Positions 4,256 to 34,200 of a DNA stretch of 37,417 bases are shown in pieces (position 1 is the first letter of the stretch; the number at the start of each line of letters is the position of its first letter). The DNA is taken from the NCBI GenBank assembly GCA_014361205.1, contig JACIVZ010000009.1, forward strand, positions 1 through 37,417, given 5' to 3'. The position numbers and the translations under genes were made by a program. Origin of the DNA: Methanomethylovorans sp. GTDB lineage: Archaea; Halobacteriota; Methanosarcinia; Methanosarcinales; Methanosarcinaceae. Under the pieces are notes generated by a model. That model was not told the origin of the DNA. It saw only the letters and a program-made list of their open reading frames with translations, and made no database searches.

Positions 4256-4267
4256 GGTAATCCCGGC

Positions 4268-12991: not shown

Positions 12992-12992
12992 A

Positions 12993-14806: not shown

Positions 14807-15981
14807 CAGTCTTTACCGTCCGGATAGTAAAATGTTCCAGAATCCCAGATTTCTTTGCTGGTATGAGTGAAGTTGGCAAGATATTCATGATGCAGAGCCG
14901 TTGTGTTTATGTCTGAGAACCTGTCCGGATACAACCATGAAGCTATCTGTATCAGAGCTACAGGAGACGATGAACCGAAAGCAAACTCTGGGGTGAGCAC
15001 ATAAACTTTTTTGTTCTTTACCGCTGAAATAGTGTTAAATCCGGGCATGCTGATCAGGTTATCATGTAATGCAATGACCTCGCTTCGCTCATCGGTTGTA
15101 TAACCTCCTTTTGATGACCAGATAAAAATTGCTTCTGGATTCTGCCTGATTACCCATTCATTCTCCACATCTGCATAATCTTTGATATATCCTCTGGCTA
15201 CGTTCACTCCCCCTGCTGCAGTACACAGATCATCCAATCCTGTTCCTTCTCCGTAAGCCCTTCTTCCAAAGGATTTTCCACTTCCTGATTCTGCATAGAA
15301 ACGCACGCGTTTATCTTCCGGGATATCTGCTATGCGTTCACTTACAAGGTTGAAGTATTTATCATACCAGGTTAGGTATCTGCCTGTATTTTCTTCTTCA
15401 TTCAGCAGATGACCGATGGATTCTATTTCAGTGCGATAGTTATTTGCTTTGTAAAACTCCATGCGCAATACAGGCATGCTGGAAGGAAGGTGTTTTTCAA
15501 GCTTTGCAGGATCCGGCCAGTTAATATAGCTTATGATCAGGTCAGGTTTTAATGCCATAATAGCTTCTATGTTAGGCTCTGAAAATTTTCCAACGCTGGG
15601 AAGAGCACTTACCTGTGGGTACTGGAGAGTTTTCTCTTTAACGGATTCGGCAACTCCGACTATCAGCCTGTCTGCACCGATGATGGTCATTGCATCAGCA
15701 GCGTTGGTGTTCAGGATAACCACACGTTCTACAGGAGTATAAAAAACGAATTTTTTTCCTGTGGAATCAGTTATACTGCGTGGATATTCGGGATACAGTG
15801 ATGCAGCCTCGCGTAGCTCTTCAAGAGATGGAGTGCTCTGACCCTTATTTTGCAGATAGGAAAGGATACCCTGTGATAAAAGATAACGTGCTTCACTTTC
15901 ATTATCTTCAAAGGCAAAAGCTTGGCCTGTAGTAAGCAGTGACATGAATAGAAGACAGAGAATCAAATAAACAGCTCTCAT
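14806..15981 (-). CDS. btuF: BtuF/FepB-like substrate-binding protein without visible membrane anchor
   Basis: A 391-aa exported periplasmic-binding-protein homologue (TroA/BtuF superfamily). Its signal peptide ends around GQAFA, a 50-residue N-terminal extension follows, and the binding fold begins near RVVILNTNAADAMTIIGA. The start at 15981 is chosen because GGAGG lies seven bases upstream; the longer frame would add 12 residues inside the preceding gene. I see no lipobox cysteine and no PGF-CTERM tail, so it is probably free or held by a partner, unlike the second BtuF at 26449-27450. The gene overlaps the preceding surface-protein gene by four bases. Confidence 0.85.
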   Translation of the reverse strand: MRAVYLILCLLFMSLLTTGQAFAFEDNESEARYLLSQGILSYLQNKGQSTPSLEELREAASLYPEYPRSITDSTGKKFVFYTPVERVVILNTNAADAMTIIGADRLIVGVAESVKEKTLQYPQVSALPSVGKFSEPNIEAIMALKPDLIISYINWPDPAKLEKHLPSSMPVLRMEFYKANNYRTEIESIGHLLNEEENTGRYLTWYDKYFNLVSERIADIPEDKRVRFYAESGSGKSFGRRAYGEGTGLDDLCTAAGGVNVARGYIKDYADVENEWVIRQNPEAIFIWSSKGGYTTDERSEVIALHDNLISMPGFNTISAVKNKKVYVLTPEFAFGSSSPVALIQIASWLYPDRFSDINTTALHHEYLANFTHTSKEIWDSGTFYYPDGKD

Positions 15982-16415
15982 CGATATTGCCTCCTCAAAA
16001 GTGCAATACAAATACAAGCAAAGCAGCCTGAAACAATTCCAAATCCAGGTGCTTTATTGTTATCTATAATTGTTTCGGCCTCTTCGGCACGAAGGTCTGT
16101 CCATGTACCTGTTATCCTGGGTGTGCCTGTACCTTTAAGTGAATACACAATCTCTTCTTCTCCGATAACAGCAAAATGAACTTTGTTTGCTTCTGCAAGT
16201 GTCTGATCTGCGGGATGCTCAGTGACCATAAATTCATATCCTTGAGGGATTACCTCAGTTACCCCACCAATAGTGTTTTGGGGAAATTCCAGTCTGACAG
16301 TTATAACACCCTCCACATCTGCCGATGTGATTGTCCGTTCCACATGAGCAGCTGCTGGGCCGACAAAAAATGCAGCTACCATTAATGCCACAATCAGCCA
16401 GTGAATTTTTAGCAT
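15978..16415 (-). CDS. Small surface protein with PGF-CTERM-like anchor
   Basis: A 145-aa protein with a signal peptide (cleavage near GPAAA), a single beta-rich domain and a C-terminal APGF, hydrophobic helix and RRQYR, which is a PGF-CTERM-like archaeosortase signal. The domain (RTITSADVEGVITVRLEF, VTEVIPQGYEF, EEEIVYSLKGTG) resembles a beta-sandwich module often seen in methanogen surface proteins. It leads the operon and overlaps btuF by four bases (ATGA), so the two are made together. A role as anchor or docking partner of the unanchored BtuF is my inference. No Shine-Dalgarno is visible; a TATA-like stretch about 30 bases upstream suggests a short or absent leader. Confidence 0.7.
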   Translation of the reverse strand: MLKIHWLIVALMVAAFFVGPAAAHVERTITSADVEGVITVRLEFPQNTIGGVTEVIPQGYEFMVTEHPADQTLAEANKVHFAVIGEEEIVYSLKGTGTPRITGTWTDLRAEEAETIIDNNKAPGFGIVSGCFACICIALLRRQYR

Positions 16416-16707
16416 GGTGAAATAGCAGAGGTTATACTATTTATTCTTTTCTTAGCAAATAGTTATACAAATAAAAATATAATTCATAACATGTTATTAT
16501 TAAAATTATTAATGCTATTTACAGATAACACAATATCACAATCAATAATTATTAGATGTTTAAAAATAAATTACAAAAAGTGAATTGTAAACTTAATTAA
16601 TATGATAAACTATTATAAAAATATGACATCGTAATAAATATATAGAATTATGTGTTACTGTACATGAAAGTCAGAGGACACTGAACCTTTGATTGGAGGT
16701 AAACGAT
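16416..16707. promoter_or_regulatory. Divergent promoter region between BtuFCD-cobN operon and pilin operon
   Basis: An AT-rich region separates two divergent operons. For the + strand, AAATATATAG at 16636-16645 is a good TATA candidate, giving a leader of about 40 bases before the pilin. GGAGGT at 16695-16700 is its ribosome-binding site. For the minus strand a TATA-like AGTATAAC lies close to the start at 16415. A 15-base string TTTACAGATAACACA at 16518-16532 recurs exactly in the promoter of the ATPase gene at 18036-18050. A TAAACTATTATA string near 16606 resembles the palindrome upstream of the ArsR gene. Confidence 0.5.
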
Positions 16708-17355
16708 ATGAAAAATAAATTCAGCAACAATGAAGATGCAGTGTCACCTGTCATCGGTGTAATGCTGATGATAGTTGTTACGGTGATATTGGCTGCCGCA
16801 GTTTCAGGATATGCTGGCGGCTTAACCGGTAACATGCAGAAAGCTCCGCAACTGGTAATGGATGTATCGATTTCGAATACAGGACATTGGATAGGTAGTC
16901 AGATTCAATTTGACGTGTTAGGTGTAAGTGAACCTATCCCGACAAAAGACCTGAAGATTGTTACTTCATGGACTAATGCAACGGGGGCACTCAAAGGAAA
17001 TACAACAACAGGATGGGATGGAACTACTTACAATACAAATTACTACAATTACCAATATCAGGCACCAACTGGATATGGGAAAGGTGTTAAATCTGATCAA
17101 CAGCGTACATCAGGTGGCTATTCTCCTGCACAGTTCTTCGGAAATTACACACTCATTCCCGGCACATCCATGAAAAACTCTCCAGACTCAATGTATCAAA
17201 ATTTTGAATATAGCTCAGACCGTGGTATTGACGCTATTGAAGCTATCCTAGGTGTGGGATGGCAGGAGTTGCGTACTGGAGATATCGTGAATGTGAAAGT
17301 AATACATCTTCCCAGTGGTAAAGTAATCTTTGAGAAGAACGTGGGGGTGCAGTAA
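16708..17355 (+). CDS. Archaeal type IV pilin (class A of pair 1)
   Basis: A 215-aa prepilin. A short charged leader (KNKFSNNED) precedes AVSPVIGVMLMIVVTVILAA, the hallmark of the archaeal type IV pilin N-terminus (Pilin_N). It would be processed by an archaeal prepilin peptidase and assembled through this hydrophobic helix. The rest is a beta-rich head. I place the start at 16708, behind GGAGGT, not at the upstream TTG at 16693, which overlaps that site. The head shares TKDLKIVT, FGNYTLIPGTSM and a VNVKVIxLxSxKVIF ending with the pilin at 27888-28541, so the two are paralogues. Stop and next start overlap (TAATG). Confidence 0.9.
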   Translation: MKNKFSNNEDAVSPVIGVMLMIVVTVILAAAVSGYAGGLTGNMQKAPQLVMDVSISNTGHWIGSQIQFDVLGVSEPIPTKDLKIVTSWTNATGALKGNTTTGWDGTTYNTNYYNYQYQAPTGYGKGVKSDQQRTSGGYSPAQFFGNYTLIPGTSMKNSPDSMYQNFEYSSDRGIDAIEAILGVGWQELRTGDIVNVKVIHLPSGKVIFEKNVGVQ

Positions 17356-17939
17356 TGAGATTTTTCAGGAATGATGAAAATGCAGTTTCGCCTGTTATAG
17401 GCGTCATGCTGATGCTGGTGGTAACTGTTATCCTTGCTGCGGCAGTTTCAGGTTTCTCAGGAGGTCTTGTAGGGGATACCAGTAAACCATCACAGATGGC
17501 AATAAAAGCAGATTTTAGCCAGTCCAAGGGTCTGACCATTACTCACATGGGTGGCGATACTATCAACACCATGGAAACGGCAATCATTGTAAACCCCACC
17601 CGTGATTTCGGAAGCTATGACCAGATGAAATGGGATGCAAACACATCTGTAGTAAGAATCAATAAAGGAACTCAAAGCAGGGTATGGTACAGTCCGAACT
17701 CATATTCAAGTCAGCTTGCAAGAACCTTCCAGCCTGGAGAAACTGCATATGTGGCTGCGTCAGATCTTTACGAAGTTCAGCCTGAAACATACGTAAGAGG
17801 CTCCTCCCCAGAGGAAGATGCACTTCATCCGAACTATGGTTTTATGACCACAACCGCAGTTGGTCAGAGGTTTGTTCTATCACTTGTTGACAGCGATGGC
17901 AAGACTATTGCAAAGACAGAGGTGGTGATTCGGCCATAA
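17355..17939 (+). CDS. Archaeal type IV pilin (class B of pair 1)
   Basis: A 194-aa prepilin with leader RFFRNDEN, then AVSPVIGVMLMLVVTVILAA. The head contains ITHMGGDTI, a motif also present in the pilin at 28542 (LEHLGGDIL) and the pilin-like protein at 21553 (IVHAGGDIL), so the three heads are related. It is translationally coupled to the preceding pilin. Two different pilins in a fixed pair suggests a heteropolymer or major/minor pilin arrangement. A hairpin and T-tract follow. Confidence 0.9.
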   Translation: MRFFRNDENAVSPVIGVMLMLVVTVILAAAVSGFSGGLVGDTSKPSQMAIKADFSQSKGLTITHMGGDTINTMETAIIVNPTRDFGSYDQMKWDANTSVVRINKGTQSRVWYSPNSYSSQLARTFQPGETAYVAASDLYEVQPETYVRGSSPEEDALHPNYGFMTTTAVGQRFVLSLVDSDGKTIAKTEVVIRP

Positions 17940-17978
17940 TGGCCTGATATATCCTTTTTATTCTTTTCTTTTTTTTTG
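17932..17978 (+). terminator. Hairpin plus T-rich tract after pilin pair 1
   Basis: GGCCATAATGGCC at 17932-17944 is self-complementary and overlaps the stop codon. A T-rich tract follows at about 17954-17978. T-tracts of this kind end archaeal transcription, so the pilin pair can probably be transcribed apart from the ATPase gene that follows. Confidence 0.6.
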
Positions 17979-18017
17979 ATAAAATACTAACATATGTTGC
18001 TAACATGATATCATTAT

Positions 18018-18050
18018 CTTTTTATAGACCTAAAGTTTACAGATAACACA
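18018..18050 (+). promoter_or_regulatory. TATA box and repeated element upstream of pilus ATPase gene
   Basis: CTTTTTATAG at 18018-18027 is centred about 28 bases before the ATG at 18052, so the transcript is probably leaderless; no Shine-Dalgarno is visible. Between TATA and start lies TTTACAGATAACACA (18036-18050), identical to the string at 16518-16532 in the divergent promoter region. It could be a shared regulator site. Confidence 0.5.
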
Positions 18051-18051
18051 C

Positions 18052-19668
18052 ATGAGTGCATTGCTTGAAGACATAAAGACCTTTGCTAACAGGATTCTTG
18101 CCCCTCCCGGAAGAGCGAAACATACTGCCATTTATGAGCCGGAAGAAGAAGGCGATCTTGTTACGTTTGAGGCTCCTGAGGAGTATGAAGAGATAGAACG
18201 GTACTGGGTGGACGAACCATATGCTTTTATTTGCATTTTACTGCACCGCGAAAAAAGAGATTATGTGTATCATGTAGTGGAGCCTAAGCTTAACAAGTTT
18301 GAGAAGGCACTGCTTGAACAGTTGTTCATGGAACTCGGGGACGTGATAAGTCTCAAAGGAGTGGAAGATATAGACAGGCTTACAGATGCCAGGAAAACAG
18401 AACTGCTCCGAGAACAGGTAGATCGTCTGATTTCGGAATATTCCACGTTACGTCCACGTTCTTTTGAAAAAATTTTTTATTACATCAAACGCGACTTTAT
18501 TGAGTTCGGCCAGGTAAGTGCCATAATGCGTGACAGTCACATAGAAGACTTGTGGTGTAACGGGGTGGGTATTCCTGTATTTGTCCACCACGTTGCCTAT
18601 AGTAACGTTATTACCAATATAATATTTCATACCGATGAAGAACTTAATGCCTATGTAATGCGTGTTGCACAAAACAGCGGCAGGCATCTTTCCAAAGCAA
18701 CTCCTATCCTTGATACGGTCATGAGGGACGGTTCCCGTATCAATATAACATATGGAAGTGAAGTAAGTCCCAAAGGCAGCTCATTCAGTATAAGGAGACA
18801 GAAAAAAGTTCCTATCACACCCCTTGACCTTATAGCATGGAGGACGTTCACCTCAGAAATGATGGCATATTTCTGGCTATGTATGGAAAACGGCAAAAAC
18901 ATATTATTCTGCGGAGGCACTGCTTCAGGAAAAACATCTTCTCTAAATGCTATCTGCATGTTCATTCCCATGGATATAAGAATTGTTACCCTCGAGGATA
19001 CCCGGGAGATACAGCTCCCGCACCAGAACTGGATACCCACTGTTACAAGAGATGGTATTGGCGCAAATGAAGTAGGTGCAGTCGACCTTAACGACCTGCT
19101 TAAAGCCGCATTGAGACAACGTCCTGAGTACCTCCTTGTAGGTGAAGTGCGTAGTAAAGAAGCCCAGATACTTTTCCAGGCAATGAACGCAGGCCATGCC
19201 ACATGTTCCACATTTCATGCAGGCACACCAAGAGAAGTGATCAACCGTTTTACAAATCCGCCTATTAATGTGCCCCTTGCTATGTTCACTGCTCTTAATA
19301 TAATATCCATGCAGTCAAGCTCATACGTAAATGGGGTTCAGAGACGCAGAACATCAGTGGTTACTGAAGTAACAAGCAATTCAGACAGAGTAGATCTAAA
19401 AGAGGTGTTCGTATGGAAGCCCATCACCGATGAATTCGAGAAAAAAGAATCACATATACTGGAGCAGATTAAAGCACGTCATGGATGGAGCACTGAACAG
19501 CTCAAAAAAAATCTGCAGCTAAAACAGCTTCTCCTTGACAAAATGCTGGAACACGGTATACGTGACTATAATGATGTTGTCAGCTGGCTTGATGCCTTCC
19601 GAAAGAATCCGGATAAAGTAATCAGCCTTCTCACTTCTGGACAGCCAAATCAAAAAGATCAAAAGTGA
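18052..19668 (+). CDS. Type II/IV secretion-like ATPase (TadA/GspE family) for pilus assembly
   Basis: A 538-aa hexameric secretion ATPase homologue. Walker A GGTASGKTS lies at about 288-296, an Asp box TLEDTRE at 313-319, Walker B-like LLVGEVR at 361-367, and a His box in CSTFHAGTPREV. The long N-terminal domain before the ATPase core is normal for archaeal GspE/PilB-type proteins. It would power pilin polymerisation from the cytoplasm together with the membrane protein encoded six bases downstream. The archaellum ATPase FlaI is a relative, but no archaellum-specific genes (flaH, flaG/F set) accompany it, so a type IV pilus or secretion filament is more likely. Confidence 0.9.
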   Translation: MSALLEDIKTFANRILAPPGRAKHTAIYEPEEEGDLVTFEAPEEYEEIERYWVDEPYAFICILLHREKRDYVYHVVEPKLNKFEKALLEQLFMELGDVISLKGVEDIDRLTDARKTELLREQVDRLISEYSTLRPRSFEKIFYYIKRDFIEFGQVSAIMRDSHIEDLWCNGVGIPVFVHHVAYSNVITNIIFHTDEELNAYVMRVAQNSGRHLSKATPILDTVMRDGSRINITYGSEVSPKGSSFSIRRQKKVPITPLDLIAWRTFTSEMMAYFWLCMENGKNILFCGGTASGKTSSLNAICMFIPMDIRIVTLEDTREIQLPHQNWIPTVTRDGIGANEVGAVDLNDLLKAALRQRPEYLLVGEVRSKEAQILFQAMNAGHATCSTFHAGTPREVINRFTNPPINVPLAMFTALNIISMQSSSYVNGVQRRRTSVVTEVTSNSDRVDLKEVFVWKPITDEFEKKESHILEQIKARHGWSTEQLKKNLQLKQLLLDKMLEHGIRDYNDVVSWLDAFRKNPDKVISLLTSGQPNQKDQK

Positions 19669-19674
19669 ACACGA

Positions 19675-21504
19675 ATGGACCTCAAGCTAAATACAAAATT
19701 CATCCGGCAGTATTTCAAGAAAAATCCGGAAAAGTACGCTGAACTACGGAAGAGCCTTCGTGCTGCACGGATGGACATACATTATGCTGCATATATAGAG
19801 CAAGGCATCATTTATGCTGCCCAGAACTTCATATTAATGTTTGTATTATTCTATATGATGCCCACTATAATCAAAATTGAATTTTTCTCATTTTTACTTC
19901 AGTTCCAGAGAATTTTACTTTCCTATGAAGCCTTAATAACAGTACCTGTCGTATCATCTGTTTTTGTCTATTATCTTCATCTGTCCACTCCGATATTCAA
20001 GGCATCTGCCCGTAAGACTAGGATAGATATGGTGCTTCCTCATGCTGCAGCTTTCTGTTATGGTATGAGCAAAGGTGGTGCCACCATGTATGAAACTGTA
20101 ATGGAACTGGCCAGAAATCCACATATTTACGGTGAAGTCGCCACTGAATGTCTGTATATCGTAAGGGATGTTGAGCTGCTGGGTGCTGATCTTGTAAAAG
20201 CGATACGTAATGTTGCAGAAATAACCCCATCTCCCACATTCAGGGATTTTCTTGAAAACATGATCCCTATGGTGGAAGGTGGCAGTCACGTTGACAAGTA
20301 TTTTGAAGTGAAGATGAATCAATACTTTGAGCATGCAAGAAAAGCACAGATAATGTTCATCAAAACACTTGAAATGATTTCTGAAGTATATGTTGTGGCT
20401 TTTGTAGCAGTTCCCATTTTCCTTCTGATAACCTTAGTAACCATAGGTCTGCTTAATGTTGGTCAGACCGGATATATGTTCCAGGCTCTCTACCTGGGAC
20501 TACCTCTTGGCTCAATTGCTCTGATTATACTGTTGGATGCCATTTCTCCCAAGGAAGAACTCGGATTAAAGTATATGGATAAAGTAATTCTCACAAGATC
20601 CATATCTATTGAAGAAGAAGAGATTGAAGAGTCAGAGTACAAGAAAAAAATGAGCAAGCTGGAAATGAACAGATATAAGAAAAAAATCTATGATATACTG
20701 AAAAATCCCTTTATTCCCATCTCCAAGAAACCCATCTATGCAGCAGTTTTCAGCGTGCCTCTGATGATACTTCCTTTTATCTATTTTGACGATACTTTTT
20801 CAAAGCGGGCAGTTTTATCCATGATACTGGGAATATTGCCTGTTACGGTGGCTTTTGAATACAGGAAGAGAAGACTCAAGAAACTGGACAGTGCCATTCC
20901 TGATTTTCTGAGGAGACTGGCTGAAATAAATGAACTTGGACTTCCTCTTAAGAATGCTATAGGTCTGCTCCTGCAATCAAACATTGGTCTGCTGTCTGCA
21001 GAAATAAGAAGGGTTTGGCTGGATATGGAATGGGGTGGCGAAATGAGAGACGCTCTGGCACGATTTGAGAACAGGATAGGTACACCTGCTTTGAGGCGTG
21101 CAGTTACTCTTCTTATAAAAGCAAGTGAAGTGAGTGATGATACGAAAGATGTACTAATTATCGCCGCAGAAGATGCTGAAAATCTGAACAAGCTGCGTTC
21201 GGAAAGATCCGAAACGGGGTTCATGTATCTTGCAACAGTTTACCTGGCATTCGGGACTTTTCTGTATGTGTGTTACTCTTTTTCTAATCAGTTTCTTGTA
21301 TCTATTGTGGGCATGGGGAACAATCAGGTAATGATCAATCCTGATGAAATAAAAGCTACAATGTTTGATACCTGTGGAATACTGGGTCTTTTTTCAGGTA
21401 TCATTCTGGGAGTAATGGCTGAAGGCAAAGTAATGGCAGGGCTTAAACATTCACTTATTCTGCTTACACTGGCATTTGTGATGTTCCAGGTAGTGATCAA
21501 ATGA
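19675..21504 (+). CDS. TadC/FlaJ-like membrane platform protein with two T2SSF domains
   Basis: A 609-aa polytopic membrane protein. Two T2SSF-type cytoplasmic modules are visible, one around residues 120-240 (AAAFCYGMSKGGATMYETV) and one around 400-510 (IPDFLRRLAEINELGLPLKNA), each flanked by pairs of membrane helices. This double arrangement matches archaeal TadC/FlaJ-type proteins that form the platform on which pilins are assembled. A charged segment rich in glutamate and lysine (residues about 310-345) links the halves. It is six bases downstream of the ATPase, as in most such loci. Confidence 0.9.
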   Translation: MDLKLNTKFIRQYFKKNPEKYAELRKSLRAARMDIHYAAYIEQGIIYAAQNFILMFVLFYMMPTIIKIEFFSFLLQFQRILLSYEALITVPVVSSVFVYYLHLSTPIFKASARKTRIDMVLPHAAAFCYGMSKGGATMYETVMELARNPHIYGEVATECLYIVRDVELLGADLVKAIRNVAEITPSPTFRDFLENMIPMVEGGSHVDKYFEVKMNQYFEHARKAQIMFIKTLEMISEVYVVAFVAVPIFLLITLVTIGLLNVGQTGYMFQALYLGLPLGSIALIILLDAISPKEELGLKYMDKVILTRSISIEEEEIEESEYKKKMSKLEMNRYKKKIYDILKNPFIPISKKPIYAAVFSVPLMILPFIYFDDTFSKRAVLSMILGILPVTVAFEYRKRRLKKLDSAIPDFLRRLAEINELGLPLKNAIGLLLQSNIGLLSAEIRRVWLDMEWGGEMRDALARFENRIGTPALRRAVTLLIKASEVSDDTKDVLIIAAEDAENLNKLRSERSETGFMYLATVYLAFGTFLYVCYSFSNQFLVSIVGMGNNQVMINPDEIKATMFDTCGILGLFSGIILGVMAEGKVMAGLKHSLILLTLAFVMFQVVIK

Positions 21505-21552
21505 TTAACTATATCGTAGGATTGATCTGTACAAGAAATTCAGGTGATGCAA

Positions 21553-21963
21553 ATGGCTTCTGAAATGGTCGGAGAGATATTGAAACTTGCTATATCTGTT
21601 ACTCTGGTTGCTGTATTCTCAATAGGCGTATATGCTTATCTGCCTGAAGAAAGAGTGCCATATCTTGAGATAGAGATGAGCTGGAATGCAAATCAACAGG
21701 GATCTGTTGATATCGTACATGCAGGTGGTGATATTCTGCATACACAAGAAATAACAATACTGGTCATGGATGCAGAAAAACCTTTCCTGCCGCCGGAAAA
21801 CATAAAACTTTCAGATATTATTACGGACACAAATGTATGGCGTTTTCCAAGAACAGTAACCATTGATCTCAGTGACTATTTCACAGATGTTCCTGATATA
21901 GTCACTGTGAGAGTTATACATCCACGAGCTATACTTGCAGAGGGGACGGTGTATAGCTCATGA
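21553..21963 (+). CDS. Pilin-like protein lacking the AVSPVIG processing site
   Basis: A 136-aa protein with one N-terminal hydrophobic helix (EILKLAISVTLVAVFSIGVYAYL) and a beta-rich outer domain. It shares the IVHAGGDIL motif with the class B pilin heads, but it has no charged leader followed by AVSPVIG, so it may stay in the membrane uncut as an accessory or anchoring subunit, somewhat like archaellum FlaF/FlaG. I place the start at 21553, four bases after AGGTGAT; GTG 21544 and ATG 21547 are alternatives. Its stop overlaps the next start (ATGA). Confidence 0.75.
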   Translation: MASEMVGEILKLAISVTLVAVFSIGVYAYLPEERVPYLEIEMSWNANQQGSVDIVHAGGDILHTQEITILVMDAEKPFLPPENIKLSDIITDTNVWRFPRTVTIDLSDYFTDVPDIVTVRVIHPRAILAEGTVYSS

Positions 21964-23096
21964 GGAGTGATATCCGGATAAATGAGCACGCTGTTTCGAC
22001 AGTGGTTTCTGCCATTCTCCTGCTTGCAGTGCTTACAACCTTCCTTGCAGCTATCAACAGCTATTACATTCCTTCCCTTATAGCTGACCATGAGATCCAT
22101 CACATGCAGGATGTAAGGAACTCATTTATGGAAATAGCAGCTGCTGCATCCCCGGGATCTTCTAAAGAAAGGGTGCTTGTTCCCCTGGGAGATGGGGGAA
22201 TGCCTTTCATTTCGTCATTATCTTCCAGTGGTACGTTGATAGTTTCATCGGATAAGGGGAAGATCGAAATAACTATGACAGGTGCCCGGCCTGTGGAATA
22301 CCAGCAACTGGAATTCAAAGATGATACTACAATTCAAAACATCCAGTCTCTTTCCCATTTGATGCTTATAATTGAAGATTCTGATGAAGATGGTGTTTAT
22401 AGTGCCACTATTGATAATACAGAAATTAAAATAGTAGTAAATTCAAATACTGTTTCTGTTGATTCTCCCGGATACAGCGGAACTGTACTACGTAACAGCC
22501 CTCAAAGTTTTTGTCTTGACCTGCTTAATCCGGCATATGGATTTGATGAAATTGTAGCTGATGCACAAAACTCTCCCCCCTTTAATTTAGAGCTTAAAGG
22601 AGCAACAAATTCCAGCTACTTTGATGCAGAATTTACCATTCTTCTGAACGATATCGACGTTAATCCCATCTCAGCACAAGGTCAGATAAGATACATATCC
22701 GGCAATAACCAGTGGATAGACCAGGATTACATATTTGAGGGCGGAGCAGTAATCCTTAAACAAGGCTCCAATTCCACGATAAGATCACAACCATTTTTCA
22801 GAATAGACGACAAGAACATAGAACTTTGTCTGTTCAACATCAATACAGATGCAAGTATAAGTGGTAATGGTGCTGTCGTTGTGAATGTGTTTGGTACTGA
22901 AGGAAAAAAGTACGAATACAGGAATGTGGAGAATACTACAATTACTGTTCATTCCCTGTATACTGAAGCATGGTATAACTATTTTTCAAAATGTGGTGGA
23001 AATCCTGAGACAGATAATGGGAAAATTACCGTCAGTTTTCCAGGAAGGAACGTTTCAATTATCACAAGTGATGTACACGTAATATTACCAAAGTAA
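21960..23096 (+). CDS. Large pilin-like surface protein
   Basis: A 378-aa protein with a short charged leader, then HAVSTVVSAILLLAVLTTFLAA, a divergent type IV pilin-like helix. The following SLIADHEIHHMQDVRNSF continues as helix and the long remainder is beta-rich and probably extracellular. Similar proteins are found as minor subunits in archaeal pilus loci. It closes the pilus gene set, coupled to the previous gene by a four-base overlap. It may cap or initiate the filament. Family assignment rests on the N-terminus and context. Confidence 0.75.
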   Translation: MRSDIRINEHAVSTVVSAILLLAVLTTFLAAINSYYIPSLIADHEIHHMQDVRNSFMEIAAAASPGSSKERVLVPLGDGGMPFISSLSSSGTLIVSSDKGKIEITMTGARPVEYQQLEFKDDTTIQNIQSLSHLMLIIEDSDEDGVYSATIDNTEIKIVVNSNTVSVDSPGYSGTVLRNSPQSFCLDLLNPAYGFDEIVADAQNSPPFNLELKGATNSSYFDAEFTILLNDIDVNPISAQGQIRYISGNNQWIDQDYIFEGGAVILKQGSNSTIRSQPFFRIDDKNIELCLFNINTDASISGNGAVVVNVFGTEGKKYEYRNVENTTITVHSLYTEAWYNYFSKCGGNPETDNGKITVSFPGRNVSIITSDVHVILPK

Positions 23097-23140: not shown

Positions 23141-23153
23141 AACTATAATAGTT
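23141..23153 (+). promoter_or_regulatory. Palindrome overlapping the promoter of the ArsR-type gene
   Basis: AACTATAATAGTT is a perfect 5-bp inverted repeat with a 3-base centre. Its TATAATA lies about 25-31 bases before the ATG at 23175, the place expected for the TATA box of a leaderless transcript; no Shine-Dalgarno is seen. A second TATA-like stretch lies at about 23110-23122. A regulator bound here would block its own promoter, so autoregulation is plausible. Confidence 0.5.
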
Positions 23154-23174: not shown

Positions 23175-23738
23175 ATGAGCAAAAAATGTAATGATATTTT
23201 TCCACAAATAGACCATTGCGAACGAATCAAAATATTAAATGCTCTTGGCAGTGAGACCCGGGTGAAAATTATTCAAATAATCTGTGAGGGTAATATCCAT
23301 GTGTCAGAACTGGCAAGAACAATTGGTCTTTCAGTACCTGTTACTTCAAAACATGTAAATTTACTGGAAGAAGCAGGTCTTATCAAAAGAGAGATTTATG
23401 GAAAAAGTCATGTACTGAGTATCAATAACAGGAACCTTTATGCTGCCCTTGATATTTTCGCACCGAAAAAGAAACTTAAAGTAAAAAAAGGTACAACTCT
23501 GCTGGAAGCTCTTGAACAGGTAGCAGTTGTCGAAGTTCAGAACGTGAAGGGGTATAACAATATAGTATCTACCAATGGTGAAGAAGGGTTTTTTGTATAT
23601 GAGGTTGATGGGGAGTTCTCCAATAAGACCGTTCAGGAATATACTTTTGAAAAAGACGTTACTATTGCATGGAAAAAACTTGAGCCTATCACCAAACTTA
23701 AGCTTGAAGTCAATGTAAATGAAGAGAAGGATTATTGA
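23175..23738 (+). CDS. ArsR-type winged-helix regulator with DUF4430 (transcobalamin-like) C-terminal domain
   Basis: A 187-aa protein. Residues 15-85 form an ArsR-type winged helix (LGSETRVKIIQII, HVSELARTIGLSVPVTSKHVNLLEEAGLIKRE). Residues about 100-170 (GTTLLEALEQVA, GYNNIVSTNGEEGFFVYEVDGE, DVTIAWKK) match by eye the pattern of DUF4430, the transcobalamin-like C-terminal domain. In DUF4430 proteins this module is usually extracellular; joined to a DNA-binding domain it could sense a corrinoid or related ligand in the cytoplasm. No ArsR metal-binding cysteine pair is apparent. It sits between the pilus genes and the second BtuFCD operon. The HTH call is firm, the C-terminal call moderate. 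Confidence 0.8.
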   Translation: MSKKCNDIFPQIDHCERIKILNALGSETRVKIIQIICEGNIHVSELARTIGLSVPVTSKHVNLLEEAGLIKREIYGKSHVLSINNRNLYAALDIFAPKKKLKVKKGTTLLEALEQVAVVEVQNVKGYNNIVSTNGEEGFFVYEVDGEFSNKTVQEYTFEKDVTIAWKKLEPITKLKLEVNVNEEKDY

Positions 23739-24588: not shown

Positions 24589-25371
24589 TTATCCAGCTTT
24601 AGAAACTCTTTTTAAGAGGGGCATGATATAGAGAGAATTAGTACTTTTTAAGGTGTTTACTTCCACAGGTATGTTGAATGTATTCCGGATATTCTCTTCT
24701 GTAAACACTGTTTCTGGTTGGCCTGTACATACAATCTCTCCGCTTTTAAGCATGCAGATACTGTCACAGTAATGTGCTGCGAGATTTAGATCGTGGATAA
24801 CCGCTATCACAGTCAGTCCACTGTCAGCTGCCTCTCTTACGAGATTTAATATTTCTACCTGATGAGCAATATCCAGATGTGATGTGGGCTCATCCAGCAG
24901 GAGTATCTTTGGTGTCTGTGCCAGAGCCCTTGCAATTATGACACGCTGCAGTTCTCCGCCGCTTAGCTCAGTTACCATGCGGTCTTTGAATTCGTATGTA
25001 TTTGTTTTTCTCATGGCATCTTCTGCTATCATTATGTCCTCAGGTTTTTCGCTGCCTTTTATATAGGGAGTACGCCCCATAAGCACAATGTCCCTGGCAG
25101 TAAAGTCAAAATCTATTGATACTATCTGTGACACCACTGCCACATTTTTGGCAATCTCACGGTTATCCATTTCAGTGATATTGACATTGTTGATGTATAT
25201 ACTTCCGGCATCAGGGATCAGGTACTTTGCAAGACTTTTGAGGAATGTTGTCTTGCCTGAACCATTTGGCCCTACAATGCCTACTATTTCTCCTTCATGA
25301 GCTCTTAGGTTTACTTTATTCAGAATCTTTCTGTTGCCATAACTTACACAGACGTCTTTGACTTCAAGCAT
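24589..25371 (-). CDS. btuD: BtuD/FepC-like ABC importer ATPase (second copy)
   Basis: A 260-aa ABC ATPase with Walker A GPNGSGKTTF, signature LSGGELQRV, Walker B ILLLDEPTSHLD and the H-loop in VIHDLN. It belongs to the BtuD/FepC group, as does the copy at 12993-13772, but differs enough to be an old paralogue. It overlaps the permease gene by eight bases and ends the operon. Cargo is most likely a corrinoid or other tetrapyrrole given the neighbourhood; ferric siderophore or haem cannot be excluded. Confidence 0.88.
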   Translation of the reverse strand: MLEVKDVCVSYGNRKILNKVNLRAHEGEIVGIVGPNGSGKTTFLKSLAKYLIPDAGSIYINNVNITEMDNREIAKNVAVVSQIVSIDFDFTARDIVLMGRTPYIKGSEKPEDIMIAEDAMRKTNTYEFKDRMVTELSGGELQRVIIARALAQTPKILLLDEPTSHLDIAHQVEILNLVREAADSGLTVIAVIHDLNLAAHYCDSICMLKSGEIVCTGQPETVFTEENIRNTFNIPVEVNTLKSTNSLYIMPLLKRVSKAG

Positions 25372-26452
25372 AGATAGTCTTCCTTCTTTTTCTAAGCAGA
25401 TATATGAAAAACGGAGCTCCGAACATGGCGGTGATTATCCCCACCGGCAGGTTTTCGGGGGGTATAACTATCCTGGAGATTGTATCACACATGATGAGAA
25501 ATATAGAGCCTGCGATGGTGGATGTGGGAAACAGTATCCTATGGTCCGGACCTACTATGATTCGTGTGATATGGGGAATGATTAGTCCTACAAAACCGAT
25601 TATGCCGCTTACTGCAACTGCGGCGCCGGTGATAAGAGAAGCAAGTAAAAGAATGTACCTTTTGACCCATTCGATATTAACTCCCAGATACTGTGCCTGT
25701 TCTTCTCCAAGGAGCATTACATTAAGATTCCATGCATGGCGGTACAGCAGAATAATACCTGCAATGATCATCACTGATGAAGTTCCCACCTTTTCCCATG
25801 AGGCATTAGCAAAACTGCCCATCATCCAGAATATGACATGGTCTCTGGATTGATTGATATATACAAGAAAAGAGGTAAAAGCACTGAGAAATGATCCTAC
25901 TGCAATACCTGCAAGTAAAAGAGTGTCTATTGGAACACTACGTCCTACCCTTGAAATGTTGTAAACGAGAAAGATGGTGAGGATGGAAAATACAAACGCT
26001 GTTGTCTGAACATAAAGACCTAACAACATTGCAAGGGAAGCGCCCAGGGAGGCTCCTGAGGACATACCGATAATGTAAGGATCTGCCATTGGGTTCTTAA
26101 GAAGTCCCTGCATGGCACATCCTGCTGTACTGAGAGCTGCTCCCACAAGACCTGCGAGCACTACCCTTGGAATGCGGCTTTGTAACACGATTACTTCGTA
26201 CTTTGGAGGCCATGTTTTGGTGAGGGAGAGGTAATCCCATACAGGGCTCTGACCGATGGAGGGAACAAAATGTGAGAGGGTGTTTTGTGTTCCTTCCAGG
26301 ATACCCATGTAGGTTATCTTTGCTACCATCATTGCGGATATATCAGCACTTCCTACGGCTGCATTACTTACTATGACAACTGCCAGGCATGCTGTCAGTA
26401 AAAAGAGTATTGATTTGCCGTGCCTTTTGGTGTCTGTCATGTTATTCATCAT
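25364..26452 (-). CDS. btuC: BtuC/FecCD-like ABC importer permease (second copy)
   Basis: A 362-aa FecCD/BtuC permease with about ten helices. Hallmarks are RIPRVVLAGLVGAALSTAGC with MQGLLKNPMADPY, LGVNIEWVKR, and GIIGFVGLIIPHITR followed by GPDHR. The first ATG is used here; an in-frame ATG four codons later (MTDTKRHG) is also possible. It overlaps btuF by four bases and btuD by eight, so the three form a coupled unit. Confidence 0.9.
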   Translation of the reverse strand: MMNNMTDTKRHGKSILFLLTACLAVVIVSNAAVGSADISAMMVAKITYMGILEGTQNTLSHFVPSIGQSPVWDYLSLTKTWPPKYEVIVLQSRIPRVVLAGLVGAALSTAGCAMQGLLKNPMADPYIIGMSSGASLGASLAMLLGLYVQTTAFVFSILTIFLVYNISRVGRSVPIDTLLLAGIAVGSFLSAFTSFLVYINQSRDHVIFWMMGSFANASWEKVGTSSVMIIAGIILLYRHAWNLNVMLLGEEQAQYLGVNIEWVKRYILLLASLITGAAVAVSGIIGFVGLIIPHITRIIVGPDHRILFPTSTIAGSIFLIMCDTISRIVIPPENLPVGIITAMFGAPFFIYLLRKRRKTIYA

Positions 26453-27450
26453 AGTTTTTTGTTTATTTTATATGCAGCAACTGATACAACTATAAAAGCT
26501 GTGAGCCAGGCTGTAAAACCGGGTGCTGTGCCGGCAGATGCTGATGCATCAGCTTCTTCCTGTGCCAGACTGATATAGTGGTGTATCTCTTCAAGCCCCT
26601 GCACTATTCTGGGTCCGGGTCTTTCAATGATATTGGAATCTGAGATGACGTACACCCGCTGGTTCTTTACCGCATCTGTCATTGCAATCATGCTGTTGTT
26701 CATAACCTGTTGTTTTATGGTGTTTCCGTAAGTGCCCATACCGGAACAGATTATGATCTGCGGATTCTTATCCACAACTTCCTCCAGAGATATCTGGGGC
26801 CATTTCCTGGATTCTACTATGTTTCTGCCACCTGCAAGCTTTATGAGACTGTCCGGAAAACTGTCCTTGCCTGCTACGTACATGGGATCAAAAGATACAA
26901 GGAAAAGTACTCCGGGACGCTCTGTTTCTGGTATGCCGGCAGTCTGGCTGCCGATATTGCCGATTATTTCTTTCATGCCGGCGGTAAGCTTCAGGGCTTC
27001 TTCCTCATGTCCGGTGATAGTGCCTGCAAGTTCAATATTGTGCAGGATGTCGTCCATAGTGGCGGCGTCCAGAGTGATGACTGTAAGACCAAGCTTTTTG
27101 AGTGTGTCAAGGGTTTCGTTACCGTTTGCAGAATAGGCAAGAATCACATCAGGCTCAAGGTTCACTATGCTTTCGATGTCGATGCTTGCATAACCTCCCA
27201 CCTTTGATATGCCTTCAACTTCAGGAGGATAGTTGTCATAACTGGTAACACCTACCACGGCATCTCCTGCACCGACGGCAAAAAGGATTTCGGTGTTGCT
27301 TGGTATTAAAGATACTATTCTTTCAGGTTTTTCCTTGATTGTAATATTCTTGCCATAACAGTCAGTGATCGTCACAGGAAATGCCGCCGCACAATTTACA
27401 AAAAGCAGGGCAGTTAATATAAGAATTGCAGTCAGTGATGTTTTTGACAT
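26449..27450 (-). CDS. btuF: BtuF-like substrate-binding protein with PGF-CTERM-like anchor
   Basis: A 333-aa exported binding protein. The signal peptide ends near NCAAAFP, the TroA/BtuF fold begins at RIVSLIPSNTEILFAVGAGD, and continues with VGGYASIDIESIVNLEPDVIL. The C-terminus is a serine/alanine stretch, then APGF, a hydrophobic helix and KINKKL, a PGF-CTERM-like signal, so this copy is anchored at the cell surface by itself. GAGGAGA lies at good spacing before the start at 27450. It leads the second importer operon, divergent from pilin pair 2. Confidence 0.88.
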   Translation of the reverse strand: MSKTSLTAILILTALLFVNCAAAFPVTITDCYGKNITIKEKPERIVSLIPSNTEILFAVGAGDAVVGVTSYDNYPPEVEGISKVGGYASIDIESIVNLEPDVILAYSANGNETLDTLKKLGLTVITLDAATMDDILHNIELAGTITGHEEEALKLTAGMKEIIGNIGSQTAGIPETERPGVLFLVSFDPMYVAGKDSFPDSLIKLAGGRNIVESRKWPQISLEEVVDKNPQIIICSGMGTYGNTIKQQVMNNSMIAMTDAVKNQRVYVISDSNIIERPGPRIVQGLEEIHHYISLAQEEADASASAGTAPGFTAWLTAFIVVSVAAYKINKKL

Positions 27451-27558: not shown

Positions 27559-27575
27559 ACTGTAACTTTTACAGT
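27559..27575. promoter_or_regulatory. 17-base palindrome, candidate operator
   Basis: ACTGTAA, three-base spacer, TTACAGT: a perfect 7-bp inverted repeat about 110 bases upstream of the second btuF. Its size and symmetry suit a dimeric winged-helix regulator. Its half site TTACAGT recurs at 27712-27718 near the pilin transcription start, so one regulator might act on both divergent operons. Confidence 0.45.
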
Positions 27576-29117: not shown

Positions 29118-29843
29118 ATGGGGTCATATCTGAAAAAACCTGAAATGAAGCATAAAGGACAGGTACTGTTTTCCAAGAACGGACCTTTAAATGATCCCCG
29201 GGGATACAGGACAAGAAGAGACAGAAAAAAAGATAAGATAGCGAAGTTAGCTTATGTAAAAGTAACTGTCTTCATTGTAATGATTCCTGTTGTATTGCTT
29301 TTGGTTTCCGGTTCTTTCCCTGCACCAGCGGGTTTTATTAAAAACGAGACAGCCCGTGACCCCACATGGGATGAACTGATGGCTTTCCTAAGAGAAGATG
29401 ACACGGACAGGCAACAGTATCAGGAAGAGGTATTTGACTGCACCCATTTTGCACAGCGGCTCCATAACAATGCAGAGCAGGCAGGGATACGTGCAGCCTA
29501 TGTTACTGTTTTCTGGTACAATAACAGCACAGGGCATGCCCTTAATGCATTTGAGACAACCGATAAGGGTCTGACCTTCGTGGACTGCACAGGTTCTGGA
29601 AATATCCTCACAGAAAGGCAAAGCATGGATAAAATTGCATACGTGGAAAAAGGAAAGAAATATGGCACTATTTCCATCTATCATGCCACAAGTCCGGAGT
29701 ACGATTATTATCTGCAGTACATACAGAATAAAGATTCCCTATATTCTTCTGAAGACCCTAATATTGTCAAGGAAGTGAATATCTACTGGTGTGACTACAG
29801 TCTTGGGGATACTATTGCATACAGGCTTCACCAGAGGATTTAG
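29118..29843 (+). CDS. Membrane-anchored transglutaminase-like protein
   Basis: A 241-aa protein with a basic cytoplasmic N-terminus, one membrane helix at about residues 45-67, and an outer domain with the transglutaminase-like triad: C108 in FDCTHFAQ, H140 in TGHALNAF and D156 in FVDCTG. The family includes cysteine peptidases and cross-linking enzymes, so cleaving or cross-linking of surface proteins is likely, with the neighbouring pilins as possible targets (inference). GAGAGGAA seven bases before the ATG supports the start. The gene lies just after the pilin terminator on the same strand. Confidence 0.8.
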   Translation: MGSYLKKPEMKHKGQVLFSKNGPLNDPRGYRTRRDRKKDKIAKLAYVKVTVFIVMIPVVLLLVSGSFPAPAGFIKNETARDPTWDELMAFLREDDTDRQQYQEEVFDCTHFAQRLHNNAEQAGIRAAYVTVFWYNNSTGHALNAFETTDKGLTFVDCTGSGNILTERQSMDKIAYVEKGKKYGTISIYHATSPEYDYYLQYIQNKDSLYSSEDPNIVKEVNIYWCDYSLGDTIAYRLHQRI

Positions 29844-30083: not shown

Positions 30084-30932
30084 TCAAAGAAAACCATGAC
30101 TTTTTCCGGTATCGGCAACAGATTGTATGAAAAGTGCAGCTATCTGGGGAGATTCGCCAAGGATCTTGCTGCTCACCGAGACAGTATATCCTGCTGCTTC
30201 CAGTTTATTCTTCCATGAATCAGGACCGCTGCCATCAAGTTCATAATCCGTATGTTTGCCGGGTATCAGTGTAAGAGGAGCAAGAGTTACCTTTCTGGCA
30301 TTGATATGTTTAAGACGCTGCAGAACCCAGTCTGCCCCCGGATAGCCGCAGCTGGTACCGATCACAATCCTTCCCCCAGTCTTTTCGTCCATCATAAGCT
30401 GCAGCTGGCATAGGGAAGGATCAGCACCTCCTTCATCAATGGGTGAAACGAGCACAGTTGCTTCGTTCTCTGCCGGCATACCAAAATATGCAGTTATGGC
30501 ATCTGCTGCTGACCAGTAGTCCTCAGTGTTCATCAGCAGAGGTTTCCCTATAAGTATACCGTCTATGCCGAAGGACACATGCTTGCCTGAGAACTCATTG
30601 AAGGTGCTAACTGTTGAATAAAGCACATGCAGACCGTCGCCTGGTGTAATGTACAACGGCTGAACTATCATTTTTGTAAAGCCTTCATCAATAAGTTTCG
30701 CCAGTGCACCTACAGGGCTGCTTACGATATTCCCTTCTTTTGCCATAACCTGTCTTACAAGCTCGGATGCTATGGCATACCGTACAACCGAATTCGGATA
30801 TGCGTTCTTAAAAGCATCCACACAGTTCTCAAGTATCTTTTTTGCACCATCCCTCGTAGTGCTGCTGGCAACGAGCAGTATGGCAGTCCTTGCGTCTTTC
30901 TTTATTTCATGACCGGATTTCGTTTCATTCAT
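30084..30932 (-). CDS. CbiK-family protein with altered active site
   Basis: A 282-aa homologue of CbiK, the anaerobic sirohydrochlorin cobaltochelatase. Family features include an AILLVASSTT start, QPLYITPGDG, LIGKPLL, VTLAPLTLIPGKH, and PDSWKNKLEAAG followed by LGESPQIAALF. Of the residues that matter in Salmonella CbiK (H145, E175, H207), only the last has a counterpart, H227 in GKH. The MGHG histidine is replaced by SPIDEGGAD (about 163-171) and the glutamate before xYP by cysteine (SCGYP, about 194-198). It may therefore use another metal or tetrapyrrole, or be a non-catalytic carrier. The start at 30932 is backed by GGAGG; a longer frame to 31157 adds unrelated residues. Confidence 0.8.
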   Translation of the reverse strand: MNETKSGHEIKKDARTAILLVASSTTRDGAKKILENCVDAFKNAYPNSVVRYAIASELVRQVMAKEGNIVSSPVGALAKLIDEGFTKMIVQPLYITPGDGLHVLYSTVSTFNEFSGKHVSFGIDGILIGKPLLMNTEDYWSAADAITAYFGMPAENEATVLVSPIDEGGADPSLCQLQLMMDEKTGGRIVIGTSCGYPGADWVLQRLKHINARKVTLAPLTLIPGKHTDYELDGSGPDSWKNKLEAAGYTVSVSSKILGESPQIAALFIQSVADTGKSHGFL

Positions 30933-31136
30933 GTATTTTCCTCCTATCATATTGCTTCTTATTACAGCTCCCGGGGAGCCATAAACAGTAGTTTTCCATG
31001 CCTTCCTGTTCACATTGATTTTTTCTTTCCCACCCACAGGACAATGTCTTCCAGTTTTCACACTGCAGCTGATACCTCTCTTACACAGCATTGTATCAGA
31101 TAATAATACCATGTTTGTAGAGAATGATATATAAAA
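30933..31136 (-). promoter_or_regulatory. Promoter and long leader of the CbiK-like gene
   Basis: On the minus strand, a TATA box TTTATATATC lies at about 31125-31134, predicting a start near 31100 and a leader of about 165 bases. The leader would begin with a 7-bp hairpin (arms 31093-31099 and 31069-31075). It also contains AACAG/CTGTT arms at 30984-31010 and the palindrome GCTCCCGGGGAGC at 30967-30979, before GGAGG and the ATG. So the gene has its own promoter and a structured leader. The 100 bases between 31137 and the CobN stop show nothing further. Confidence 0.45.
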
Positions 31137-31237
31137 CAAAGTTTTAAAGTAATACATGTTATTTTTTATCCTAATATACCCCTTTATTCAAAGTGTGTCA
31201 CCCGATCAAAATGATGCATACCCCCTTTTACGCCACT

Positions 31238-34200
31238 TCAGCCGTTCATGCCCTCCAGCATATCCTCACCTTCCATATAGATATCCGTCAGTTTCTGCAC
31301 AGTTTCCTCATCAGCATCCCACATGCCCCTCTGTACAGCTTCCAGCAGCCTGCCTGCCATCTGCCTTAAAGCATATGGATTGTTCTCTTTGATCCACTGC
31401 TTTGTCTCTTCATCAAACAGGAACTTCTCGGCAAGTGACTGGTACATCCAATCATCCATCATATCAGCGGTGGCATCCCATCCGAAAGCATAGTCCACAA
31501 GGATGGAAAGTTCCTGTGCTCCCCTGTAACCATGTCGCTTAAGACCTTCCAGCCATTTTGGGTTCAGCACACGGCTTCTGAACACGAATCTCCCCTCCTC
31601 GTCCACCCTCCTGCTACGGGGGCGGTCAGGGTCAGAGCTGTCACCCACCATAGAGAGAGGATCCTTGTTCCCGAAAGCCTTGACACATGAAATCATACCC
31701 CCATGGTACATGTAATCATCATCATTGTCAAGAATATCGATCTCTCTTGAATTGTGATTCTTTACCGTAACGTCAAGCTGGCTGAGGCGCATTCTGAACA
31801 GTTCAGGCATTTTCTCACCTTTCAGATCACGTCCATATGCATGTCCTCCCCATGCAACGTACATATTTGCCAGGTCTTCCTTTGAGTCCCATTTCGATGA
31901 TTCCACAAGTTCTCCGACTCCAACCCCGTATGTTCCTGGCGGACAGCCGAATATGCGGATTACAGCCCTTTCATGTGCCTGCTCTTCGCTCATGCCGGCC
32001 TTTATGGAATCTATCAGTTCTCTGCGAAGATGTTTGAGCAGATAGTTCTCTTCCTCGGTTTCATCAAGAGCTGCTATCATCTTCACACCATCATCGATCA
32101 TGTGTATAAGATTCGGAAAAGCATCCCTGAAAAGCCCGGTGATACGCAGCGTCACGTCCACCCGCGGCCTTCCCAGCTCAGAGGGAGGGATAACCTCAAT
32201 ACCCGTCACAACACTGCCCCTTGCCGACCACACAGGCCGGAGCCCCATAAGCCACAGTACATAGGCTATATCGTCACCTCCGCTTTTCATGGTATCTGTA
32301 GCAAAGATTACCACTCCCACATTCTCAGGATAGCAGCCTTCCTCCTCTATATACCTTGCAACCATCTGGTCTGCGAGCTTTTTCCCCACCTCCCATGCTG
32401 AGGGAGTGGGAATAAGTGCCGGATCAATGGAAAAGAAATTCCTGCCTGTAGGCAGGAGATGAGCATTGCCACGGGTGGGGGCACCCGAGGGACCCGGAGG
32501 CACATAATGTCCATCTACTCCTCTCAAAAAGTTCCTTATCTCATCCGTCGTGTTCCTCAGGCGGGGAACAACCGAACTGCAGATATATTCCACAGTTTCC
32601 GGTACCTGCAAGGAACCAGGGAACATATGAGCAGCAAGATCAGTACAGGCAGCTGCTTCATATCCGAGCTCATCCATACCCTTAATAAGAGCACGGCTCC
32701 TCTTATCCACATCCTCAAGCAGCGCCCCTTTCAGTTCTCCAAGTTCAGGATGGAACTGTGCGGCATTTTCCTGCAGGTCGTGCAAGTCAAGACCCATATT
32801 TTCCGCAATCCCTTGCCTCAGAGAAGACACATCTCCGTTATTGAGGCGTGTAAGGCTGTACACCAGTTCGGTGAAGCGCTCCTCCTGAGGAGTCTGACCA
32901 AAAATATGAAGACCGTCCTTGATCAGGTTATCCTTCACATCGCATAGGTAATGATAAAGCGCATTCAGGTGCTCTTCCAGCTCTTGTGGGGGAGTATCTT
33001 CCGGCAAACCAAGGTCATTGAGAAGATTGTGCTTCTTTACATCACGGTGTATTTCTTCCAGCAACAGTTTTACCTTGTTGTCATCTCTTGCATTCACCGC
33101 ACGGAAGTATTCCTGCAGCTTCATTTCTATATCTTCAATCTCCCCATACCCGTCAGCCCGCATCATGGCAGGAATGAGATGATCAAGTATGACCGCCCTG
33201 CTGCGCCGCTTGGCCTGTGCCCCTTCTCCGGGATTATCTATAATATAAGGATAGATATGAGGTATATCATCGAGCACCACATCCGGGAAACACTCCTCTG
33301 AAAGCCCCACGCCCTTGCCCGGAAGCCATTCCAGAGTCCCGTGTGTCCCCACATGTATAATGGCATGGACACCGAAATCCTCCTTCAGCCATCGATAGTA
33401 AGCGAGGTACTGGTGGGGCATCACAAGATCCGTGCTCTCATATATCTCCATAGCCTTCTCTAGAAAACCCCGCAAAGGCTGCAGTCCTATGAAAATGTTT
33501 CCGTTTATGACACCCGGTACTATTAGGTTTCCATCTGCTGCCAGTATCTCCCCCGGTGGCTCGCCCCAGTCTCTCATCATTTCCCGCCTGCTCCTGGCAG
33601 GTATGTTTTCGAACCACCGTCCATAGGTATCACCATTGATGAGCCCTGCAGCTCTCTCCATCATTTCCCGGGGCGAGAGCCATTCGCAATCATTGCTGAC
33701 ACCTGCAAGGATCTCCCGGACAACCTCGTTCCCGGATCCAGGTAGCCTCTGCACATAATAGCCTTGTTCATGAAGAGCCTGGAGCATTGTCACAACACTT
33801 TCCGGAGCATCAAGTCCGTAAGCACCGCCTACCATATCGTTGCGTGGGGGATTCTGGTGCAGGATTATTGCCAGTTTCCTCTGTGCAGGAGGTGTTCTCC
33901 TCAGCCTTGCCCATTCTGCAGCCATCCGTGCCACTCTGCCTACCCTGTTCCTGATGGGTGCAACATGACGTTTACCCTGAGAATCTCCGATTTCAGTACT
34001 AGCTATGGGCACGGTTATTATCTGTCCGTCATACTCAGGCCACACGACATTGGTCGAAAGCTCAGTTGCCTGAAGGCCCTGGATATCTTCCTTCCAGCCT
34101 TCATACGAGTGAAACGTAGTCATGGCCTGGATAACAGGCACATCAAGGGTATCAAAGAAGTTCTCCGGTGGCTCGTGTTCGGTCCCGTCGCCGGGTGATG

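Follow-up and report, generated by a model that had tools for sequence, protein, structure and literature searches.

Between two operons for corrinoid-type importers and beside a set of pilus genes, the stretch of Methanomethylovorans sp. DNA analysed here (37,417 nucleotides, hereafter the window) carries a gene for a short protein with a DNA-binding N-terminus. This raises the question of what the protein senses and which genes it controls. A preliminary description had read it as an ArsR-type regulator fused to a DUF4430/transcobalamin-like domain, and possibly as a one-component corrinoid or tetrapyrrole sensor. The setting was found as described there, with a BtuCDF-type operon on either side and a type IV pilus operon ending 78 bp before the regulator gene (Table 1). 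For the operon downstream, BtuF, BtuC and BtuD could each be aligned with BtuFCD-CbiZ genes from a control stretch, L139. An Rfam scan of the window gave no match.

Table 1. Features of the window and the basis of their assignment.
Feature	Position	Strand	Basis
CobN/Mg-chelatase large subunit homologue	9323-12991	-	PF02514; L226 synteny, 79% identity
Second BtuDCF-type importer operon	12993-16415 (BtuCDF part 12993-16017)	-	Pfam; L226 synteny
Small secreted protein of second importer operon	15978-16415	-	L226 synteny
Type IV pilus operon, just upstream of the regulator gene	16693-23096	+	Pfam; order shared with L034, L036
Two Pilin_N-type proteins, pilus operon	16693-17355, 17355-17939	+	Pfam
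PilB-like ATPase, pilus operon	18052-19668	+	Pfam
T2SSF membrane protein, pilus operon	19675-21504	+	Pfam
Pilin_N, pilus operon	21544-21963	+	Pfam
DUF7289, pilus operon	21960-23096	+	Pfam
Perfect palindrome AACTATAATAGTT upstream of the regulator gene	23141-23153	.	possible but unsupported operator
ArsR-DUF4430 regulator gene, 187 aa	23175-23738	+	open frame from ATG; family of relatives
ArsR-type winged helix, residues 26-71, PF01022	23250-23387	+	Pfam E 3e-10; Foldseek top = ArsR/SmtB
DUF4430/transcobalamin C-terminal-domain-like segment, residues 106-167	23490-23675	+	PF14478; Foldseek to transcobalamin
Small membrane-like protein, 126 aa	23813-24193	-	no Pfam match
BtuDCF-type ABC importer operon, downstream side of the regulator	24589-27450	-	Peripla_BP_2
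Palindrome ACTGTAACTTTTACAGT	27559 (27559-27575 in the preliminary description)		found as described
CbiK-type cobalt chelatase	30084-31157	-	PF06180
Second CobN homologue	31238-34981	-	PF02514

Three further genes or gene pairs of the window were noted. The small membrane-like protein is encoded convergently with the regulator, and a counterpart (62% identity) adjoins the relative at L034. At 29118-29843 (+), beside the second pilin pair, a protein of 241 aa with an N-terminal hydrophobic segment has the Cys/His motifs DCTHFAQRL and GHALNAF, which are reminiscent of a transglutaminase-type fold. At 2984-5458 (-), two secreted proteins resembling beta-propellers are encoded in tandem, each ending in a similar PGF-type tail; the start of L226 truncates a related protein.

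The fusion of an ArsR-type winged helix (residues ~19-89) with a DUF4430/transcobalamin-beta-like domain (~100-170) was confirmed. The protein scored 40.2 bits against HTH_5 (PF01022) with its curated cut-off of 22, and its N-terminus reached 58.2 bits on the NCBIfam profile HTH_metalloreg (NF033788, cut-off 55), which assigns it to the ArsR/SmtB metalloregulator subfamily. The three motifs by which DUF4430 had been recognised occur exactly and in order in the translation, namely GTTLLEAL (106-113), GYNNIVSTNGEEGFFVYEVDGE (126-147) and VTIAWKK (162-168). On PF14478 (DUF4430, cut-off 23.8), the window copy scored 18.7 bits as a whole protein (E 0.0024) and 20.8 bits with the C-terminus alone (E 5.5e-4). 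In the family alignment, DUF4430 was matched by each of the 23 members (best E 7.9e-8), and fusion-sized frames from ANME-1 reached up to 35 bits, above the cut-off.

Hmmsearch with the C-terminal profile of the family against PDB sequences gave nothing meaningful, so the sequence link to transcobalamin runs through extracellular DUF4430 domains as a bridge. The family profile aligned to an extracellular archaeal DUF4430 profile in hhalign (probability 79.9, E 1.4e-5, 29 columns). Among PDB sequences, the extracellular profile in turn detected transcobalamin-1 (E 8e-5) and transcobalamin-2 (E 1e-3), both human. Structures were modelled with AlphaFold (mean pLDDT 80). A Foldseek search with the whole protein returned only ArsR/SmtB structures, as the HTH dominates, and the C-terminal domain was therefore folded alone. 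For this isolated model, ranks 2-5 were transcobalamin chains (7qbe, 7qbg and 5no0, the last an apo beta domain) with probability 1.00 and TMq of 0.51-0.57, at weak E-values of 0.03-0.04. The expected DUF4430 match and the transcobalamin-like fold, the latter as predicted by modelling, are thus borne out by the Pfam matches of the family, the profile-profile link and Foldseek; a C-terminus lacking both was not what the searches returned. Within the family, Phe stands where extracellular DUF4430 typically has Trp, and the strand EEGFFVYEVDG is almost invariant. Pfam scans of the window protein and its aligned relatives detected no B12-binding domain PF02310.

The match to the metalloregulator profile above its cut-off would also suit an ArsR protein that senses cobalt or nickel and controls metal/corrinoid supply genes, DUF4430 then serving dimerisation or structure instead of corrinoid binding. 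Consistent with this, a cobalt transporter cbiMNQO adjoins L073, and His42 (within EMHISELA), His60 and His79 are invariant in the family alignment. His42 stands where classical ArsR/CadC proteins have their CVC motif. However, the alignment of 23 relatives contains no invariant Cys, and the place of the CVC-type metal site in alpha3 is taken by His42-Ile-Ser. Some ArsR proteins are of the effector type and have no metal site; the lack of an invariant Cys therefore excludes only the metal-sensing type with an alpha3 site, and membership in the fold family stands. Moreover, a mere spacer would give no evident reason for a transcobalamin-like domain with such a conserved strand to be kept in 130 genomes. 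We regard a metal sensor of this kind as unlikely.

Relatives of the protein were found in 130 of the 186 genomes of the order and, in addition, in ANME-1. The window genome has two DUF4430-like places, the window copy and a second copy (G000:C123) with 55% identity to it. Two members of the wider family were conspicuous. On a contig labelled Desulfuromonadales bacterium (L058), an ANME-1-type copy is near-identical to L049/L050 and probably reflects a binning error, and the member at L080:6582-7895 (G085) lies in a 437-aa frame, which may reflect an extended fusion or a misplaced start codon.

The gene context of the family was compared with random 16-kb stretches from the same ten genomes. 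Corrinoid/cobalt genes were present in 10 of 14 family stretches versus 2 of 40 random ones (Fisher p 2e-6), with lone ABC ATPases left out and ChlI/D-type genes counted on both sides. Neighbours were labelled from their similarity to reference genes in the window and the loci; the names of these come from Pfam/NCBIfam for many genes and from sequence inspection for cbiM/N/Q/O, cbiD/T and BtuC/D. Directly downstream of the regulator lies BtuF-BtuC-BtuD-CbiZ in L078 and, also downstream, cbiMNQO in L073, while BtuFCD is divergent from it in L070. In Methanolobus and for the second copy of the window genome, the order is CbiZ - AP_endonuc_2 - regulator - radical SAM/HhH - DUF4130 - MutS-like, so that the canonical Methanolobus copy also adjoins a DNA-repair-like cluster. 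Such neighbours speak for a corrinoid/tetrapyrrole role of the family in Methanosarcinales. ANME-1 loci are mostly without corrinoid neighbours, CobN being found in L054 only (two genes upstream of the regulator), and the claim is limited accordingly.

In ANME-1, two recurring arrangements place the gene after CofE (F420-0 gamma-glutamyl ligase) or near an ADP-ribosylglycohydrolase gene (L051, L052, L056, L062 and L049, L050, L055, L057-L061). These neighbours, and the wide distribution of DUF4430 in archaeal surface proteins, would agree with another ligand such as an F420-like compound, haem, F430 or a nucleotide, and with a family of more general cofactor sensors. Yet genes specific to corrinoids (CbiZ, BtuFCD and cbi) are found repeatedly, in several Methanosarcinaceae genera and in L078, and we consider a different ligand quite improbable.

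In a maximum-likelihood tree, the window copy grouped with L005 and L006 (support 100/99); these two Methanolobus genes also appear as L034 and L036. All three members of this subclade lie after a PilB-ATPase/TadC/pilin operon, and in another subclade (L075, L077, L230), the regulator likewise follows a PilB-type ATPase gene. Together with the short same-strand gap in the window, this could point to a regulator of local scope, confined to the type IV pilus operon and responding to a non-corrinoid signal, the corrinoid genes being passengers of the island. Against it, BtuCDF and CobN genes occur in the same island in all three lineages of the window subclade although gene orders differ, and across the family, the context is corrinoid rather than pilus; a purely pilus-related function therefore seems doubtful and, in our view, unlikely. 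We instead regard the window copy as a paralogue that settled in an island of pilus, BtuCDF and CobN genes. The islands of the subclade's other members differ in detail. L226 is syntenic with window positions 9323-16415 (CobN and BtuDCF, followed by the small secreted protein and by pilins in divergent orientation), while the island of M. vulcani B1d holds CbiZ-BtuF-BtuC-BtuD together with two pilins and a number of large CobN-like proteins.

Two observations on related loci are added here. The locus L113:7906-10347 (G135), near L075, encodes a secreted protein of 813 aa with five DUF4430 repeats (E 2e-46); an ArsR-DUF4430 gene linked to pilus genes lies ~13 kb away, so that extracellular and cytoplasmic DUF4430 occur together in this region, and G136 is arranged similarly. 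CobN-like proteins of very large size (about 1450-2100 aa) form arrays at L225:10004-19837, L228, L189 and L190:6738-19901. Several seem to carry a signal peptide as well as additional N-terminal regions, and some adjoin ExbB/DUF2149/DUF2162, which possibly represents a surface-exposed tetrapyrrole system energised by ExbB.

A DNA site shared by the orthologue's neighbours came from two genera, g13 (probably Methanosarcina) and g5. There, the DUF2162 gene adjoins the orthologue in 28 of 28 listed genomes and, where neighbours were read, heads an operon DUF2162-ExbB-DUF2149-CobN divergent from the regulator. Each of these 28 promoters contains a palindrome close to GGTAAY-N4-RTTACC, 48-49 bp before the start codon, with a third half-site GTTACC about one helical turn further upstream. 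In the promoters that were read, the palindrome directly precedes a TATA-like TTTTTATTTAA. The palindromes have 0-3 mismatches, and 25 of 28 have 0-1, a level that shuffled promoters reached in 6 of 5800 trials; the 28 promoters are related to each other and thus not independent. Half-sites were changed together in G170 (GTTACC to GTTAGC), and the palindrome was absent from the sole DUF2162 promoter of the set located away from the regulator (L260). Within 300 bp upstream, it was found for 5/7 DUF2162, 2/10 CobN3 and 8/2566 other genes. The exact 16-mer showed no overall excess over a reversed control across 17 whole genomes; the signal is positional. Of 30 genomes that have the regulator, 29 also contain DUF2162, versus none of five that lack the regulator; the one exception (G169) is 75% complete.

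The palindrome also precedes CobN-like genes at L189:5480, L191:7128 and L192:14945. At L190:12172, it lies in the gap before the next operon, which has a CobN-like gene, and in L070 between BtuF and the operon of the regulator. In L054, it stands before the ANME-1-type regulator gene itself. We infer that the regulator binds the DUF2162-promoter palindrome as a candidate operator, the position of which does not distinguish repression from activation.

This candidate operator was found for the orthologue of the two other genera and not for the window copy: in the window genome, the pattern was not enriched (16 sites versus 44 for a reversed control pattern). The preliminary description had proposed DNA binding to two palindromes of the window, at 23141 and 27559. 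Both exist, but a role as operators of the regulator did not hold up. Their sequences differ and the two closest relatives have no conserved counterpart of them, so the reading as a shared operator was rejected.

On balance, we lean towards a one-component corrinoid/tetrapyrrole regulator of uptake and handling genes, the window copy acting on the pilus operon and/or the importers. The sensor foreseen in the preliminary description is supported by the family context, the co-occurrence with DUF2162-ExbB-CobN and the conserved promoter palindrome. In this model, the N-terminal winged helix would have as its operator an inverted repeat adjoining archaeal TATA boxes, and the cytoplasmic transcobalamin-beta-like domain would bind a corrinoid or a closely related tetrapyrrole, altering the affinity for DNA. 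Across the family, the presumed targets would be DUF2162-ExbB-DUF2149-CobN, BtuFCD-CbiZ and cbiMNQO. A corrinoid as ligand is suggested by these neighbours, and the targets of the window copy by its position; it probably controls the pilus operon, the flanking importers or both.

A search for cobalamin riboswitches had no hit in 60 genomes from the order, against hits in 8 of 14 control genomes. Another sensor is therefore to be expected, and since relatives of the regulator adjoin and share a DNA site with B12-type uptake-like genes, the regulator may be the missing B12-type sensor of these archaea. A bolder version, which we put forward only tentatively and hold to be rather doubtful, would make the family the general corrinoid sensor of Methanosarcinales, a transcobalamin-like cytoplasmic B12 receptor replacing the bacterial riboswitch. 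The window copy would then control a pilus/surface apparatus that scavenges corrinoids with BtuCDF and with CobN-like proteins, which in some relatives seem to be secreted or anchored to the surface.

Corrinoid methyltransferases are enzymes on which methylotrophic methanogens and ANME archaea rely. If the sensor model is true, it would explain how these archaea sense the corrinoid cofactor, via a domain resembling the vitamin B12 carrier of animals, and it would provide a testable ligand for DUF4430, which is found across archaeal surface proteins. With a single-copy orthologue and a conserved candidate operator in two related genera, the idea is directly testable in genetically tractable Methanosarcina. 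In the literature searched, no ArsR-DUF4430 protein was found described and no protein regulator of corrinoid uptake genes in these archaea was found named. An ArsR regulator of corrinoid methyltransferases is known with MM2441 from M. mazei (PMC3510493). The parts are thus already known; the combination of ArsR and DUF4430 and the proposed role are new to us.

Compared with known systems, the protein resembles ArsR/SmtB regulators (PF01022), often found beside transport genes, in its N-terminal winged helix and as a short one-component regulator, but its family lacks invariant metal-site cysteines and has an extra C-terminal effector domain, a type for which the literature searched gave no description in such regulators. 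This domain resembles the beta domain of transcobalamin and intrinsic factor and DUF4430 (PF14478) in the family-wide profile match and predicted fold. Unlike in these carriers, it is cytoplasmic, single and fused to a DNA-binding domain, with Phe in place of Trp. The window protein has no alpha6/alpha6 barrel, which in transcobalamin contributes the second half of the cobalamin site. The functional idea, cobamide binding coupled to DNA binding, is proposed here as it applies to B12-binding regulators of the CarH/LitR type; these, however, use a MerR HTH and a B12-binding (Rossmann) domain, both absent from the window protein. The proposed role, control of corrinoid uptake and biosynthesis, is that of the cobalamin riboswitch (RF00174), with a protein as the putative sensor.
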